A DNA stretch of 64,000 nucleotides from a virus, in IMG/VR virus record IMGVR_UViG_3300020442_002247, positions 1-64,000 of that record; one strand, written 5' to 3'. This document shows positions 4,497 to 53,530 of the stretch, piece after piece. The notes under the pieces were generated by a model. The model searched no databases. It saw only the letters and a program-made list of their open reading frames with translations, and had not been told where the DNA came from. The position numbers and the translations under genes were made by a program. Within the stretch, counting starts at the first letter, position 1; each line of letters opens with the position of its first letter.

Positions 4497-5678
4497 ATGT
4501 CAGAACTATTAGAAAGTCGCTGGCAGGATACGAAAACTGCACTTCTTGAAGGCCTTCAAGGCACCAAGAAAGCCGTTATGGGTACGACTCTAGAAAATAC
4601 TCGCAAGTATTTGTCAGAGGCGGCTACAAGCGGTGCAACTTCTGCCGGTAATGTTGCAACTCTTAACAGAGTTATTCTACCAGTTATCAGACGTGTTATG
4701 CCAACAGTTATTGCAAACGAAATTGTTGGTGTTCAACCAATGACTGGTCCAGTGGGTCAAATCCACACACTTAGAGTTCGCTATGCGGACACTAATGATG
4801 CTACAGGTACAGCTAACGATGTTGTAGCTGGCGATGAAGCACTTTCACCGTTTAAAATTGGCCAAGCCTATTCAGGTGATGGAACTGCAGGTAAAGCATC
4901 TGCTACTGCGGGATTAGAAGGTTCAGCTGGAAACAGACTAAGCATTCAAATCTTAAAGCAAACAGTCGAAGCAAAAACCAGAAAGCTATCAGCTCGCTGG
5001 ACTTTTGAAGCGGCTCAGGATGCACAATCACAGCACGGAATTGATGTAGAAGCTGAAATTATGGCGGCTTTAGCACAAGAAATTACTGCTGAGATTGACC
5101 AAGAAGTTCTTACTAGCTTACGTACATTAGCAGGTTCAGCCGCTGAAACTTATGATCAAGCGGCAGTTTCAGGTACAGCTACTTTCGTTGGTGACGAACA
5201 TGCGGCATTAGCAGTTCAAATCAACAGAGTTGCAAACTTGATTGCTCAGCGTACAAGAAGAGGTGCAGGTAACTATGCAGTTGTTAGCCCATTTGCGTTA
5301 ACAATTCTACAATCTGCTACAACTTCTGCGTTTGCTAGAACAACAGAAGGTGCTTTTGAAGCTCCAACAAACACTAAATTCGTAGGTACATTGAACAATG
5401 CAATGAGAGTTTATGTAGACTCTTATGCAGGTGACGGTACAGGCGTACTTGTTGGTTACAAAGGCTCAAGTGAATCTGATGCGGCGGCATTTTACTGCCC
5501 ATACATTCCGTTGATGTCAAGCGGTGTTGTGTTAGATCCAAGTTCATTCGAACCAGTCGTTTCATTTATGACACGTTACGGTTACGTTGAGCTTTCAAAC
5601 ACAGCTTCATCTCTTGGTAACGCGGCAGATTATGTTGGCTTAGTAGATATTACTAACGGCAACGTATCTTTCAGCTAA
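4497..5678 (+). CDS. 23: Major capsid protein gp23
   Basis: 393 residues. T4-type major head protein with the HK97 fold; hexamers form the capsid. The N-terminal 65 residues form the helical delta domain normally removed by gp21. The family blocks LNRVILPVIRRVMP, IVGVQPMTGPVGQIHTLR and the C-terminal YCPYIPLMSSGVVLDPSSF are plain. It is shorter than T4 gp23 (521 aa), as in many marine T4-like viruses, with the T4 insertion domain largely missing. TAAGGAG lies 7 bases before the ATG. A strong intrinsic terminator follows 22 bases after the stop, so this ends the head operon. Confidence 0.97.
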   Translation: MSELLESRWQDTKTALLEGLQGTKKAVMGTTLENTRKYLSEAATSGATSAGNVATLNRVILPVIRRVMPTVIANEIVGVQPMTGPVGQIHTLRVRYADTNDATGTANDVVAGDEALSPFKIGQAYSGDGTAGKASATAGLEGSAGNRLSIQILKQTVEAKTRKLSARWTFEAAQDAQSQHGIDVEAEIMAALAQEITAEIDQEVLTSLRTLAGSAAETYDQAAVSGTATFVGDEHAALAVQINRVANLIAQRTRRGAGNYAVVSPFALTILQSATTSAFARTTEGAFEAPTNTKFVGTLNNAMRVYVDSYAGDGTGVLVGYKGSSESDAAAFYCPYIPLMSSGVVLDPSSFEPVVSFMTRYGYVELSNTASSLGNAADYVGLVDITNGNVSFS

Positions 5679-5818: not shown

Positions 5819-5932
5819 ATGGATATTTTCACTTTTTGGTGCTTCAAAAGAATACTCAGACAGCATCGTATAAAAAAGATTCAATATATATTGAGACGAA
5901 AATCTTATGGCTTATTCAAAGGAAGTTATTGA
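5819..5932 (+). CDS. 37-residue basic riboswitch-controlled peptide
   Basis: ATG at 5819 with GGGAG 7 bases upstream encodes 37 residues starting MDIFTFWCF and ending in SYGLFKGSY. It has ten Lys/Arg and one Asp, so the net charge is about +9, with an aromatic hydrophobic start. It directly follows the glutamine riboswitch and overlaps the start of iscU by 26 bases in another frame, so it may couple iscU translation. In cyanobacteria, small basic proteins under this riboswitch inactivate glutamine synthetase through Arg residues. A similar role is possible by context and charge, but no sequence match to IF7/IF17 is visible. It could also be only a leader peptide. Confidence 0.6.
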   Translation: MDIFTFWCFKRILRQHRIKKIQYILRRKSYGLFKGSY

Positions 5933-6314
5933 TCATTATGAAAGACCACGTAATGTTGGTTCTCTGGACAGTAGCGATGATAGTGTTGGCACTGGTATTG
6001 TTGGTGCTCCAGAATGCGGTGATGTAATGAAACTGCAAATTAAAGTTGATGACAATAAAATAGTTGACTGTAAATTTAAAACTTTTGGTTGTGGTTCTGC
6101 TATTGCTAGTTCTTCTTTGGCTAGTGAATGGATTTTAAATAAAACCATTACAGAAGCAGAAAAAATACAAAATACAGACATTGTAGAAGAACTTAGTTTA
6201 CCTCCTGTAAAAATACACTGTTCTGTACTAGCAGAAGATGCAATTAAAACCGCCATAGGTGATTACAAACAAAAACAACATCAACGTCTTACTGACATTA
6301 GAGGCGGAATGTGA
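5907..6314 (+). CDS. iscU: Fe-S cluster assembly scaffold IscU
   Basis: 135 residues and near the usual 128 of bacterial IscU, with strong resemblance along the whole length. It starts MAYSKEVIDHYERPRNVGS, with GAPECGDVMKLQIKV, TFGCGSAIASSSLASEW and ELSLPPVKIHCSVLAEDAIK. All cluster ligands are present: Cys37, Asp39, Cys62, His104 and Cys105. The LPPVK motif (98-102), which HscA (Hsp66) reads to release the cluster, is intact, so it can probably use the host Isc machinery. IscU receives sulfur from IscS and builds [2Fe-2S]/[4Fe-4S] clusters. It lies behind a glutamine riboswitch and overlaps a basic peptide gene. There is no clear own Shine-Dalgarno, so translation is likely coupled. It is a metabolic gene taken from a proteobacterium-like host; cyanobacteria normally use Suf/Nfu instead. 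Confidence 0.95.
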   Translation: MAYSKEVIDHYERPRNVGSLDSSDDSVGTGIVGAPECGDVMKLQIKVDDNKIVDCKFKTFGCGSAIASSSLASEWILNKTITEAEKIQNTDIVEELSLPPVKIHCSVLAEDAIKTAIGDYKQKQHQRLTDIRGGM

Positions 6315-6419: not shown

Positions 6420-6448
6420 TTGACTTTTATTTTAGGATATGCTATATT
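6420..6448 (+). promoter_or_regulatory. Sigma70-type promoter for the ncRNA
   Basis: TTGACT (-35, 6420-6425) and TATATT (-10, 6443-6448) with an exact 17-base spacer. A start about 7 bases later (near 6455) coincides with the left arm of the ncRNA closing stem. It is a host-RNA-polymerase promoter, unlike the late boxes around it. Confidence 0.85.
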
Positions 6449-6452
6449 AGTA

Positions 6453-6714
6453 AAATAAGCAACAAGAGAGTAATTAACTCTTGTTTATTAGTGCATCGAA
6501 GAGGCGTTTACCAGAGCGTCGAAGATGGCTGTTTAGGGGTGGTACCCAGGCTTGGTAGTAGAAATACGCTGAGTCACATCGCTCTACCGAGCGGAAACAG
6601 GCTCCCTGGATTTGAGAATGGCATCTCGGTCGAGGGGTTGGAGGTGTAACCTAGTCCTTCCTAATATTGCTTATTTCTTTAAAAGGTGTACAAGTTTACT
6701 TGTATGCCTTTTTT
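6453..6714 (+). ncRNA. Structured non-coding RNA of unknown class
   Basis: About 225-260 nt with no credible ORF. A sigma70 promoter starts it and an intrinsic terminator ends it. A 10-bp closing stem AAATAAGCAA (6453-6462) / TTGCTTATTT (6667-6676) encloses the body. An 8-bp hairpin AACAAGAG/CTCTTGTT (6461-6468/6478-6485) competes with the last two closing-stem bases. A central 9-bp stem GCTTGGTAG (6550-6558) / CTACCGAGC (6584-6592, one G-U) is nested in CCAGG (6546-6550) / CCTGG (6605-6609). A small GAGA/TCTC hairpin lies at 6614-6627. Local G+C is well above the neighbours, as in folded RNAs. I checked by eye for tmRNA (no tag ORF or TTC arm), RNase P, SRP RNA, lysine and cobalamin riboswitches and group I/II intron cores, and none fits. 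It appears to be a stand-alone phage RNA gene. Confidence 0.8.
6682..6714 (+). terminator. Intrinsic terminator of the ncRNA
   Basis: AAAGGTGTACAAG (6682-6694) pairs with CTTGTATGCCTTT (6699-6711) over a TTTA loop with two G-U pairs; the 3' T run extends to 6714. It begins only 6 bases after the ncRNA closing stem. Confidence 0.85.
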
Positions 6715-6721
6715 CATTTGT

Positions 6722-6729
6722 GATAAATA
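6722..6729 (+). promoter_or_regulatory. Late promoter box GATAAATA
   Basis: GATAAATACTTA, a full match to the window's late consensus, 8 bases after the ncRNA terminator. It would start a leader of about 90 bases in front of the first MGRPINK gene. Confidence 0.65.
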
Positions 6730-6735
6730 CTTACG

Positions 6736-6825: not shown

Positions 6826-7287
6826 ATGGGAAGACCTATTAATAAAAGATATTTCGGAGTAGCAGGCACAGGTCCTACTGCGTCTGGAAACGAGATCAAA
6901 GTAAATTTTCACAACGGCTCGGGTGTCAAAGAAGGTTACATCGTTAAGCAACTAGGATCCAAAAAATTCCGTGTTGAAGAGATTGAGACAGCTGGAACAT
7001 TTGATTGCACATTGAAAACAGGTGTTTTACCTGCGGCTTTATCTTCAGGTGAGATGTCAATTTCAGTACAAGGCGTTGATTCAGAAACATATGGCGTAAG
7101 CAAAATAGCTGGACGTAAAGTAACTGTAGCTCAACCAAGTGCTACAGGTTCAAACGCTCTAGACGGTACATCTATTAAATGGGCTCTTACAGGAGCCGCG
7201 GCTACTGGATTAGTTAGAATGGAAGAAGCTGGTGATGATAACACATTGTCTGGTACAGACGATGACGATTTCACTGAGGACGCTTAA
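6826..7287 (+). CDS. MGRPINK-type virion protein 1, probable capsid or tail decoration
   Basis: 153 residues, Gly/Thr/Ser-rich and probably beta-strand, ending in an acidic DDDDFTED tail. It shares its first seven residues (MGRPINK) with the next gene, after which the two diverge, so they are likely paralogues or carry a common assembly signal. AAAGGAG precedes the ATG by 8 bases. It lies after the capsid module, between a late promoter and the fibre genes, so a structural, decoration-type role is likely. No T4 counterpart is recognised and the exact place in the virion is unknown. Confidence 0.6.
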   Translation: MGRPINKRYFGVAGTGPTASGNEIKVNFHNGSGVKEGYIVKQLGSKKFRVEEIETAGTFDCTLKTGVLPAALSSGEMSISVQGVDSETYGVSKIAGRKVTVAQPSATGSNALDGTSIKWALTGAAATGLVRMEEAGDDNTLSGTDDDDFTEDA

Positions 7288-47212: not shown

Positions 47213-48526
47213 ATGAGTAGAAGTGCTATATTTGATCGAATTAGAATTATACCAAGACCTGACGATTTTCTCGATAGAAACGTAGGAAGTAGTGGTGAAA
47301 TCTTCTTTGATAAACAAGCAAATACATTACGTTTGTATAACGGAAAAGCTACGGGTGGTTTTTCAATACTTACAGCAGGAAATTTTACTCAACAAATAGC
47401 AAATACCGGCGTTGCAGTATTAGAAAAAACTGTTACTGTCGGTGTTGATTCTGTTGCAGGACAAGCTACAGGAGTTTTTTACATAGACGGTGTAGAGAAA
47501 CCTATATTACAGTTTGTAAGAGGATATACTTACGTATTTGATCAATCTGATGATTCAAATGCTAACTTTGGCGGACTATGGCATCCATTGATGTTTTCTA
47601 CTACACAAGATGGAGATCTAGTACCAGGTGGTCTTCACTATGACCAGATTACTGCTGACCATGGCATAGTTTACTTACTAGATGACGATCCTGTTTCAAT
47701 GAGGTACTATACAGACAATTTTAAAACTGCAACAACAAAAAAGATTTTAATTACTGTGCAAAGTAATGCACCTGATACACTATGGTATTGGTGTCACTTT
47801 CATACTGGTCAAGGTAACCAAATAAATATTTCTGATCCAGGAACTGGTACAGGTAGCGGTAGTTCTAGTATAGAAGTTTCTGACACAGTACCTTCAACTC
47901 CTTCTGCAGGAAATATTTGGTTTAATAGCACTACCGGAAAGTTATATGTATATGTTAATGACGGTGATAGTTCACAATGGGTGCAACCAGCATCAAGCAC
48001 TGTAGGCGATTACACACTTTTATCTAATAAACCAACAATACCAACGTCAATCACAGACCTTGGTATTACAGACGGCACGTCTGGACAAGTATTGCAAACA
48101 GACGGAGCTGGTACATTTTCTTTTACTACTGTAGCTACAGCAGGAATAATAGGAAGTTTTACTTTTACTGGTACTAACATTGATACAGACGATAGTAGTG
48201 GTATAACTATTACTCCACCGTTAACAGCAAATAGTGACTTAACTGTGCAAAATGATTTAAATGTAGTAAATGATGTGTTTGCTAAAAACTTTATTTCAAC
48301 AGGCACTGGTTCGCCAGAGTTTGATAGTGCTAGTAAAATTACATTTACAGCACCAGACGGTGTTGTAGTTAATTTAGGTGCATTAAGGTTAGCAAATTTT
48401 AATAATGCTCAAAGAGATGCATATTCAGCAGACAACGGTGATATGATATATAATACTCAAGACAACAAAATACAAGCGTATATAAATGGTGCGTGGAGAC
48501 GCATAGATGACTCGGCGATAGTATAA
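47213..48526 (+). CDS. Structural protein with cupredoxin-like domain, Gln in axial position
   Basis: 437 residues. The N-terminus is a short fibre-type head (GSSGEIFFDKQANTLRLYNG). Residues 75-210 form a cupredoxin-like domain: YVFDQSDDSNANFG, then LWHPLMF (His124) and WYWCHFHTGQG (Cys194, His197, Gln200). Spacing equals that in giant fibre 1, but Gln stands where Met is expected, as in stellacyanin-type copper sites. After a Gly/Ser linker come a repeat (SDTVPSTPSAGNIWFNSTTG), a fibre-like shaft and a GTTAQR-type module (NAQRDAYSADNGDMIYNTQ, then YINGAWRR). The stop overlaps the protease start (TAATG). Probably a tail or fibre component. Confidence 0.7.
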   Translation: MSRSAIFDRIRIIPRPDDFLDRNVGSSGEIFFDKQANTLRLYNGKATGGFSILTAGNFTQQIANTGVAVLEKTVTVGVDSVAGQATGVFYIDGVEKPILQFVRGYTYVFDQSDDSNANFGGLWHPLMFSTTQDGDLVPGGLHYDQITADHGIVYLLDDDPVSMRYYTDNFKTATTKKILITVQSNAPDTLWYWCHFHTGQGNQINISDPGTGTGSGSSSIEVSDTVPSTPSAGNIWFNSTTGKLYVYVNDGDSSQWVQPASSTVGDYTLLSNKPTIPTSITDLGITDGTSGQVLQTDGAGTFSFTTVATAGIIGSFTFTGTNIDTDDSSGITITPPLTANSDLTVQNDLNVVNDVFAKNFISTGTGSPEFDSASKITFTAPDGVVVNLGALRLANFNNAQRDAYSADNGDMIYNTQDNKIQAYINGAWRRIDDSAIV

Positions 48527-50088
48527 TGAGTGAAAAAGAATATACAGTAATTGTAAAAGCAGGTGTAAACTTAGAAGAAGTTGAAAATGATTTAACTGCT
48601 TCTTCGGGAGATTCTAGTTCTATACCTAATAGAAGTGTAGACATAGTTAATGCTAGACCCGGTAGTAGAAGAGCAACACACTTTGCATTAACTGATGAAG
48701 AAGCTAAGAATTTAGAAAACGATCCAAGAGTCGAAGCTGTAGAAATACCACCAGATCAAAGAGATGATATAAAGATAGGTTTTAACGCAACCCAAATTGC
48801 AAACTTTACAAAAGGAGGTAATCCAGATACTGATACTTCTAAAGTTAATTGGGGGTTAAAAAGAGCTAACATGCCTACAAATCTATATGCAAGTGGCACA
48901 ACAACAGACCAAAATTACGAATATGCTTTAGAAGGTGAAGGTGTTGATATTGTTATACAAGATAGCGGAGTACAATTTGATCATCCAGAATTTATTGACA
49001 ATTTAGGAAACAACAGATGTGTATCGTTTGATTGGTATTCAACTGGAGTATCAGGATCTTTAAATGCAAATTTTTATAGAGATTACGACGGGCACGGTAC
49101 GCACTGTGCAGGAATAGTTGCAGGTAAAACATATGGTTTTGCAAAAAAAGCTAGAATATTCAGTCAAAAACTATCAGGACTAGAAGGTGCAGGAGATGCT
49201 GGTACAGGTATGCCTATACTAGATAGTTTTGATGCAATTAGGTTATGGCATGCTAATAAACCTGTTCAACCTAATGGATACAAAAGACCAACAGTGGTAA
49301 ACATGAGTTGGGGCTATTTTAGTGAGGTAACAGGAAATCCTACAGGTGGCACATATAGAGGAACAAGCTGGACTTACGGTGTTGATTATACAACAAGAAC
49401 TGGGTTATGGGCAGGCACTGGCGTAGTTCCAGAATTGGCGGCACTGAGTGCTTCAAGAATGCCTAATCGTGTTACAGCAGTAGATGCTGAAGTCGAAGAT
49501 TTAATTGCAGGCGGAGTGCATGTTGTTATTGCCGCAGGAAATGATTTTTATAAAGGTGATTTATCTACAGGTACTGATTATAATAATTCAGTAGTATATG
49601 GAGGATTAACATATTTCTATCATAGAGGAAGTAGTCCACATAGTGATAATTCACTTATGGTTGGAAATATTGACACAGGAGTTCAAAATGATCAAGATAA
49701 AACATATCAAAGTTCAAGTAGAGGCCCAAGAGTAAATATATGGGCTCCAGGAACAAATATTTTTTCATGTGTAAGTACAACAAATGTTTATAGTGGACTT
49801 GACTACCCTTCAAATACTAATTTTAAGATAGCAAAATTAAATGGAACAAGTTTTGCGGCTCCTCAAGTAGCTGGTGTTTCAGCACTTATAGCTGGTGCTA
49901 ACCCACAGATTACTCCGGCTCAACTAAAGCAACAGATTACAGCAGATGCAAAAAATGTAATTTACGATACAGCTAGTGACAGTGATTATGACCAATTTGG
50001 AACAAGTCTACTAGGTGCAGATAACAAAATGTTGTTTAATAAATATGGTAGACAACCTTTTAAATTTAAAAATATAGGATTAGGATAG
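48526..50088 (+). CDS. Subtilisin-like serine protease (S8) in a structural gene cluster
   Basis: 520 residues. Residues 1-75 look like an I9-type propeptide (EYTVIVKAGVNLEE, RATHFALTDEEAKNL, DPRVEAVE). The catalytic triad is complete: Asp146 in QDSGV, His190 in DGHGTHCAG, Ser442 in NGTSFAAP; Asn339 in AAGND supplies the oxyanion hole. The SSSRGP block (396-401) is also as in subtilases. A C-terminal 60 residues (NKMLFNKYGRQPFKFKNIG) resemble the ends of phage structural proteins. It has no signal peptide. It lies between two cupredoxin-bearing structural genes, so it is probably either a virion enzyme or a processing protease for fibre proteins. One-base overlap upstream; the next gene follows after 12 bases. 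Confidence 0.95.
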   Translation: MSEKEYTVIVKAGVNLEEVENDLTASSGDSSSIPNRSVDIVNARPGSRRATHFALTDEEAKNLENDPRVEAVEIPPDQRDDIKIGFNATQIANFTKGGNPDTDTSKVNWGLKRANMPTNLYASGTTTDQNYEYALEGEGVDIVIQDSGVQFDHPEFIDNLGNNRCVSFDWYSTGVSGSLNANFYRDYDGHGTHCAGIVAGKTYGFAKKARIFSQKLSGLEGAGDAGTGMPILDSFDAIRLWHANKPVQPNGYKRPTVVNMSWGYFSEVTGNPTGGTYRGTSWTYGVDYTTRTGLWAGTGVVPELAALSASRMPNRVTAVDAEVEDLIAGGVHVVIAAGNDFYKGDLSTGTDYNNSVVYGGLTYFYHRGSSPHSDNSLMVGNIDTGVQNDQDKTYQSSSRGPRVNIWAPGTNIFSCVSTTNVYSGLDYPSNTNFKIAKLNGTSFAAPQVAGVSALIAGANPQITPAQLKQQITADAKNVIYDTASDSDYDQFGTSLLGADNKMLFNKYGRQPFKFKNIGLG

Positions 50089-51971: not shown

Positions 51972-52338
51972 TTTTATTCTCCGGATTTATTGGTTTTGCA
52001 GGTATAACAATATGTGTATCACTTCCTGCATTATTATTTACCTCAGAAACAGAGCTATTATCTACTAGAGCTTCTAAAGAACAAGGTATTAATGGAGGAG
52101 CATGAAATACACTACCTTCCTGCATTTCTTGATCATATATTTGTCCTGTAGATGTATCTATATATCTTAACTTAAATTTACCTGTATTAACAAAGTAATG
52201 TTTTTCTTTTTCTTTATGATAGTGTAAAGGAGTTTTATTTCCGGCTTTTTCAAATACTAATATTTTACCTTGGTAATTTGCTGTTGATGCCCAAAGTAAA
52301 TCATAACCGTAATCTGTTTTAATTGAATTGTTTGCCAT
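51961..52338 (-). CDS. Cupin-fold protein
   Basis: 125 residues. A single cupin domain: GKILVFEKAGNKTPLHYHKE has the first metal-binding His pair and EKHYFVNTGKFKLRY the Glu/His and following strand. EGSVFHAPPLIPCSLEAL is the second cupin box, with His-Ala-Pro-Pro and a Pro-Cys turn. Similar to small mannose-6-phosphate-isomerase-type cupins. It overlaps the end of the halogenase-like gene by 20 bases. It may bind or isomerise a small substrate for that flavoprotein; the reaction is unknown. Confidence 0.8.
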   Translation of the reverse strand: MANNSIKTDYGYDLLWASTANYQGKILVFEKAGNKTPLHYHKEKEKHYFVNTGKFKLRYIDTSTGQIYDQEMQEGSVFHAPPLIPCSLEALVDNSSVSEVNNNAGSDTHIVIPAKPINPENKSAE

Positions 52339-53530
52339 TGATTTTATTTTCCATGTTTAATCCTTTTATGTTTTGATACCAAGAATGTAATCCCCAAGTG
52401 CCATATTCTGTGTCATTACTACTAGATTTAAATTCTTTGTCTACTAATCGATTCATAATTTTACTTTTGCTTGATTTTACAGTATTGAAAAATTCAGCAA
52501 ATTCTGTATCATAAAACACTCTATTTTTATATAATTTATTTGCTTTGTGCTGTGCGTTTATCCAAAAATGAGTGTCGTATTTACTGCCTGCAAGGTAATG
52601 TAAATTTATCATATTTTCTACTTGTTTTAACTTCAATGTGTAGACATTGTTAATATAATCTAAAGAGTCGTTTACTCCTAACACATACCCTGCACAAAGT
52701 TTACTAACCATTATCATAGAACTAATAGAAGTAGCTTCTAATGGTTCCAAAAAGAAACTTGCGTTACCATTGTATCCTACACGTTCTTCAAAATTTGTAT
52801 TTCTATAATAATTTTTAAAACTAAAGGCATTTGTAGTTTCACTAGGTTGTAAATTAAATTCTTCAAAAATATTTTTTACATCTTCTTTTACTTCTTCTAA
52901 AGAATTTAATTTATTATTGTACATATATCCTATACTACATCTGTTTTGTAATGGTATTCCCCATACCCAACCATATGGTCTAGCAACAGTTAACGTATAA
53001 TCAAACTTTGGTTCTGGCCAAAAACATTGAGTAACATAAACACTGTTGACTGGTATGTATTCAGTTAGGTTATAATCTTCGTATGACTTAGGCTTGCCCG
53101 AACAATCTAGCACATAGTCACTGTCATTATTGTGTGTATCTTTATTACCTTGTATAATTTTTACATTAGGATAATTTTCTTTAATTTTTTGTTCTATAAA
53201 ATCCTGTAATTTTAATGCGTTGAAATGAATTGCAACATTAGGGGTCATAAATTTATGCGTATAATCACAACCTGTAGTGGTATATCCTATTTTTCTAATT
53301 CCATTTTTATAATTACCGTCAATGTTTTTTAGGTCCGGCCATCCAAATCCTAAACTTTCTCCTAACATGTTTACAACATCTAAGGTAGTGCCTTCTCCTA
53401 CAGCTTGTGGATTAATTTCAGGATCGTATATCCATTCTATTTCTAAATCATGATAGTTAGATATATTAGCAATATTTGCAACTGAAATACAACCTGCTGT
53501 GCCCTTGCCTATGACTGTAATCTTTTTCAT
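52319..53530 (-). CDS. Flavin-dependent tryptophan-halogenase-like enzyme (copy 2)
   Basis: 403 residues, shorter than the usual 500+. It keeps the family's marks: FAD loop GKGTAGC (8-14), VGEGTT (45-50), Lys80 in NGIRKIGY at the catalytic-Lys position, WVWGIP (188-193, the WxWxIP signature) and FLEPLEATSIS (Glu265). The C-terminal part is reduced. It is only distantly similar to the 42113 enzyme. It lies in the minus operon gp14-gp15-Nudix-halogenase-cupin, overlapping the genes on both sides. Halogenation activity is plausible since the key residues are present, but substrate and reductase are unknown. Confidence 0.8.
   Translation of the reverse strand: MKKITVIGKGTAGCISVANIANISNYHDLEIEWIYDPEINPQAVGEGTTLDVVNMLGESLGFGWPDLKNIDGNYKNGIRKIGYTTTGCDYTHKFMTPNVAIHFNALKLQDFIEQKIKENYPNVKIIQGNKDTHNNDSDYVLDCSGKPKSYEDYNLTEYIPVNSVYVTQCFWPEPKFDYTLTVARPYGWVWGIPLQNRCSIGYMYNNKLNSLEEVKEDVKNIFEEFNLQPSETTNAFSFKNYYRNTNFEERVGYNGNASFFLEPLEATSISSMIMVSKLCAGYVLGVNDSLDYINNVYTLKLKQVENMINLHYLAGSKYDTHFWINAQHKANKLYKNRVFYDTEFAEFFNTVKSSKSKIMNRLVDKEFKSSSNDTEYGTWGLHSWYQNIKGLNMENKINGKQFN

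Follow-up and report, generated by a model that had tools for sequence, protein, structure and literature searches.

By sequence comparison, the RNA encoded at positions 6453–6676 (plus strand) of the window, which comprises 64 kb out of a viral contig of 69.5 kb, is a manA RNA of a divergent branch only partly covered by Rfam, and it is probably expressed as an autonomous phage gene. The surroundings of the RNA in about 200 marine phage loci suggest that manA as such is a free-standing RNA gene. We read class membership, structure, the conservation of promoter and terminator, and the adjacency to tRNA genes directly from the sequences compared. manA has been a candidate riboswitch since 2010, when it was judged certainly cis-regulatory by its original authors (Weinberg et al. 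2010, PMC2864571), and it is still treated as cis-acting in a 2025 review.

A permissive Rfam scan matched the manA model (RF01745) to positions 6461–6670 of the plus strand over its full length (model positions 1–192). The score of 55.8 bits exceeds the cut-off of 55.2 by a narrow margin; the E value was 3.9e-15 in a family search over the contig, and a fast scan of the whole window with default filters missed the RNA. One close relative scored 60.0, while several relatives lay below the cut-off, at 44–55 bits. The scores were 184 for P-SSM4, 124 for S-SSM7, 97 for S-CREM1 and 90 for ACG-2014f; RB11-B, RN05-S and one viral contig followed with 82, 78 and 76, and Mosig, the window and further contigs with 64, 56 and 44–58, respectively. 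In the reciprocal direction, a model built from the window, 31 viral contigs and Mosig (R1) recovered the manA RNAs of S-SSM7, P-SSM4, S-CREM1 and RB11-B at full length when their loci were searched (E values from 3.5e-11 to 9.2e-7). The cyanophage copies were not listed when R1 was run with stricter filters over whole records, and the two branches must therefore be far apart. A blastn comparison of the region with 50,697 phage records yielded short chance-level pieces only, and a search with a cyanophage-type DNA pattern gave no match. RF01745 was absent from the whole records of S-RIM32, SynMITS9220M01, S-RSM4, Sf-CH3, S-SRM01, Bellamy, Sf-FS3, S-CAM1 and C48C1. An earlier, sequence-only reading of this DNA had held that the RNA matches no known large RNA that could be checked by eye and had named a significant Rfam match as what would speak against this; such a match was found, over the full length of RF01745, and the claim of an unidentified class therefore fails.

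Annotated small open reading frames overlap the manA RNA in P-SSM4 (PSSM4_169.1; L318, 1885–2058) and in S-SSM7 (SSSM7_180; L319, 1942–2073), and they are probably not genes. Strong manA RNAs also occur in two contigs of 188–189 kb, L321 (NZ_RMVE01000006.1) and L323 (QCLS01000003.1), which come from a Nonlabens and a Prochlorococcus assembly, respectively. The Nonlabens contig may be a phage genome that was carried along, since it also contains PhotoRC-II, an RNA known from cyanophages. Copies of manA from Photobacterium are described in the literature.

The 295-nt stretch that holds the RNA and its flanking signals folds more stably than all of its 200 shuffled versions (z = −3.74). We assessed covariation in 33 relatives less than 90% identical, in an alignment made without reference to structure. 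A structure of 60 pairs in 13 helices was paired in 96.3% of the cells, as compared with 79.8% in shuffles, and 45 of the 60 pairs showed compensatory changes. Sliding by 1–3 columns lowered the pairing to 31–51%, a control that is biased toward the helices since these had been read from the same alignment. Thus, the structure covaries, as had been proposed from the sequence, although only one of the two stems singled out at that time takes part. The 10-bp closing stem (6453–6462 with 6667–6676) is present; its inner five pairs (6456–6460/6669–6673) are kept in 92% of the cells, all with compensatory changes, whereas the outer and innermost pairs are less conserved (75% for all ten pairs). The other, a nested 9-bp stem (6550–6558/6584–6592), proved to be a string match only: it pairs in 70.4% of the cells against 67.5% after shuffling in the 33 relatives, and it is incompatible with the supported helices 6549–6554/6570–6575 and 6580–6582/6591–6593. 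The 5′ hairpin (6461–6485 on the plus strand; 6461–6468 with 6478–6485) varies in sequence but keeps its pairing, with compensatory changes in all eight pairs. In the hairpin GGG-GUGGUA-CCC (6536–6547, plus strand), the loop is the most conserved one in the family, and inspection by eye points to a possible loop-loop contact of GUGGUR (6539–6544) with the loop at 6583–6590, which reads UACC, AACC or CAC. We also considered whether the RNA could be coding; a 52-amino-acid frame at 6491–6649 is not conserved among the relatives, and no conserved reading frame was found when these were compared.

The RNA is flanked by signals of its own. A sigma70-type promoter, TTGACT-17-TATATT with an extended −10 element (TGC TATATT), lies at 6420–6448 of the plus strand and matches the consensus at 10 of 12 positions. 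A promoter scan alone performs at chance level (4 found, 4.9 expected); the call rises above chance because its position relative to the RNA is conserved: in 77 of 93 non-redundant relatives, 39–42 nt separate the end of the −10 element from one and the same GTGC in the RNA. The upstream stretches of these 93 gave an average best sigma70 match of 9.7 of 12, against 8.2 in shuffles. On the other side, an intrinsic terminator of 14 pairs occupies 6681–6712 (plus strand), and one is found within 75 nt past the RNA in 78 of 107 window-type loci and is missing in 29. Promoter and terminator had both been recognized in the sequence-only reading, and its proposal of a stand-alone RNA gene with host-type control among late genes gains support from the comparison of loci. 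In S-SSM7, a perfect TTGACA-17-TATAAT promoter stands directly upstream of manA; the same perfect promoter in P-SSM4 is followed by the RNA, a hairpin and a CATAAATATA motif, with no tRNA.

Between the RNA and the next gene lies the late-promoter-like motif GATAAATAC (6722–6730, plus strand). The late promoter of T4-like phages is TATAAATA, which is the basis of this reading, and the motif is biased in strand within the window, where nine plus-strand copies stand against a single minus-strand one; on these two grounds we regard NTAAATA-type motifs as late promoters. An NTAAATA motif occurs within 80 nt past the RNA in 57 of 81 window-type loci, where 7.7 would be expected, and it is found on the reverse strand once. 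In the window, it is followed after 23 nt by a freshwater-2 RNA (RF02980; 6745–6828, plus strand; 72.9 bits) that reaches as far as the start codon of the gene downstream, and from these two positions this RNA resembles a late-mRNA leader. The downstream gene (6826–7287, plus strand) encodes a protein of 153 amino acids (MGRPINK...) with no Pfam match, and we do not think that it is controlled by the manA RNA. Rfam types manA as Cis-reg, which implies placement in a 5′ UTR; the window RNA does not have this placement, as the terminator and the late-promoter motif separate it from the next gene.

Upstream of the RNA are a NifU-like gene (5907–6314), a glutamine riboswitch (glnA, RF01739; 5745–5794; 51.7 bits) between it and the capsid gene, and the capsid gene gp23 itself (4497–5678); small genes without assigned function also surround the RNA. 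The gp23 protein is nearest to those of jumbo T4-like phages, mostly with 60–72% identity; Phosso, Vibrio 2.275.O, PA5oct and 121Q, rather than cyanophages, are the closest, and the contig may belong to a large genome. R1 gave no match over five jumbo T4-like phages related by gp23, and no isolate other than the SAR11 phage Mosig EXVC030M has a close copy of the RNA. A tryptophan-halogenase-like protein (52319–53530, minus strand) and a subtilase-like protein (48526–50088, plus strand) are encoded in between structural genes of the window.

manA directly adjoins tRNA genes, at distances of 0–3 nt, in five of seven isolate lineages (S-CREM1, ACG-2014f, RB11-B, RN05-S and S-SSM7), counted by lineage because a site that relatives have in common is not independent. 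The RF01745 match in ACG-2014f covers 129989–130199, a tRNA-Arg ending at 129987 and a tRNA-Asn starting at 130201. In RB11-B (L288), manA extends from 1485 to 1695, between a tRNA-Arg that ends at 1484 and a tRNA-Thr that starts at 1697; RN05-S has a similar layout, and S-B05, S-B43 and S-H68 match the ACG-2014f RNA in the same way as RB11-B. In S-SSM7, manA ends at 151563 and a tRNA-Gly starts at 151564, and further viral contigs have tRNA-Asn, tRNA-Gly or tRNA-Thr as neighbours of manA. The authors of the S-CREM1 genome annotated manA between tRNA-Leu and tRNA-Asn, yet called it cis-regulatory. The window holds no tRNA or tmRNA, and its copy has no tRNA neighbour.

The canonical (P-SSM4-like) loci present a mixed picture. 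Among the 96 with enough flanking sequence, a promoter directly precedes the RNA in 80, a terminator by the rule used here follows it in 18, a tRNA is adjacent in 7, and the next open reading frame is on the same strand in 92. A late-promoter-like motif comes after the RNA in 30 of 105 canonical loci (7.2 expected). In Mosig, the RNA lies 24 nt before the rubrerythrin gene and runs into its leader without a terminator. A cis effect is possible in the canonical-type phages and in Mosig. A promoter ahead of the RNA is not enough to decide between an RNA gene and a riboswitch leader; what separates the two is the presence of terminators, late promoters and tRNA or convergent neighbours. It looks as though the Cis-reg label is wrong for the manA family rather than for its window member, with the canonical copies mixed. 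Directly after manA, many canonical loci (L339, L340, L349, L362 and others) carry a recurring segment, GACCTAAGATGCAACT...GGGCAGATGGTC, which could represent a further small RNA or else a leader.

These layouts leave some room for a dual use, in which manA, with one and the same binding activity, would be an autonomous RNA in some phages and would serve elsewhere as leader to the gene that follows. Both arrangements do exist, the RNA being closed off by a terminator or set in a tRNA array in one and leading into rubrerythrin, gp32-like or talC-like genes in the other; however, the leader layouts may reflect compact genomes, and no regulatory element common to the leaders was seen. We regard this combination as a minority possibility. 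A purely cis-regulatory riboswitch, which would sense a metabolite and control the terminator or downstream translation, appears unlikely to us. It accords with the published classification, with the same-strand gene after most canonical copies, with the position of the Mosig copy ahead of rubrerythrin and with the intrinsic terminator after the window RNA. Against it, the genes that follow window-type RNAs belong to many families, the nearest long open reading frame is convergent with the RNA in L175, L211, L232, L239 and L260, and a convergent tRNA-Asn follows the RNA in L190. The late-promoter motif cuts the RNA off from the next gene, and cyanophage copies sit inside tRNA arrays. Moreover, no antiterminator signal was detected among 46 different terminator sequences, the 5′ arms of which are no more complementary to the RNA than shuffled ones (6.96 versus 7.09), which argues against a switching terminator.

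An RNA class distinct from the known ones might be suspected from a score barely over the Rfam cut-off and from the relatives that fall under it (44–55 bits), but this is very improbable, being refuted by the full-length RF01745 match and the reciprocal R1 matches, and the scores form a ladder (184-124-97-90-82-78-76-64-56). Slighter still is the chance that the RNA is part of a tmRNA of the permuted or two-piece kind: related phages have permuted tmRNA genes, and in L214 the RNA core begins about 25 nt past the end of one, but the window has no tRNA-like domain or tag, Mosig has a tmRNA and a manA RNA 3 kb apart, and the L214 tmRNA is complete without the manA RNA. Like manA, the permuted tmRNA (RF04321) is a structured RNA gene found in related marine phages, in one case immediately ahead of the manA RNA; the latter differs in having neither a tRNA-like domain nor a tag frame. 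Permuted tmRNA genes were observed near a NifU-like gene at L021 599–899, L023 603–903, L032 3737–3950 and L214 7842–8167, and in Mosig at L284 2587–2925.

Returning to the autonomous RNA gene, we propose that a host-type RNA polymerase would start at about 6453–6455 and make a transcript of some 225–260 nt, which would adopt a closed multi-helix fold and stop at 6681–6712, while the downstream late gene would be served by its own late promoter (6722) and freshwater-2 leader. In cyanophages, the RNA sits in tRNA arrays, and since its ends match those of tRNAs, it is presumably released by tRNA-end processing. An abundant and stable RNA is suggested both by transcription of the host type and by processing like that of tRNAs; most likely, the RNA is stable, is produced early and works in trans. 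We found no paper giving transcript ends for manA and no transcriptome of such an infection, and a pelagiphage transcriptome paper is silent on non-coding RNA. As regards its role, we suggest only weakly that the RNA helps the phage to take over translation or RNA metabolism and, as weakly, that it would be the counterpart of T4 rnaC and rnaD by position and not by sequence.

The window RNA shares with manA RF01745 the full-length model match, the conserved GUGGU loop, the helix topology and the occurrence in marine T4-like phages; it differs as a branch at or below the cut-off, with an extra outer closing stem and the context of an autonomous gene instead of a 5′ leader. T4 rnaC and rnaD (species 1 and 2; 139 and 119 nt) are stable phage RNAs without assigned function that immediately follow tRNA-Arg within the tRNA cluster; manA has the same position in ACG-2014f and RB11-B. 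Neither R1 nor RF01745 found a sequence or structure match in the T4 cluster. On balance, we lean toward the view that the whole manA class has been misfiled: instead of a riboswitch, it would be, in marine T4-like phages, a free gene for a stable RNA that acts in trans, either transcribed early by way of a host-type promoter or excised from a tRNA array, and situated where T4 has its own stable RNAs. Should manA prove to be a free RNA, the hunt for its ligand and for the genes under its control has been misdirected. Phages of highly abundant marine bacteria would then produce a structured RNA, the partners of which can be searched for directly, and an isolate, Mosig EXVC030M, is available for tests; the link to tRNA arrays also reopens the question of what rnaC and rnaD do. 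The wcaG RNA (RF01761), another marine phage RNA filed as cis-regulatory, is smaller (about 98 nt) and of another family; it lies at L285 2246–2343, in the same S-CREM1 tRNA cluster as manA, and deserves the same re-examination.
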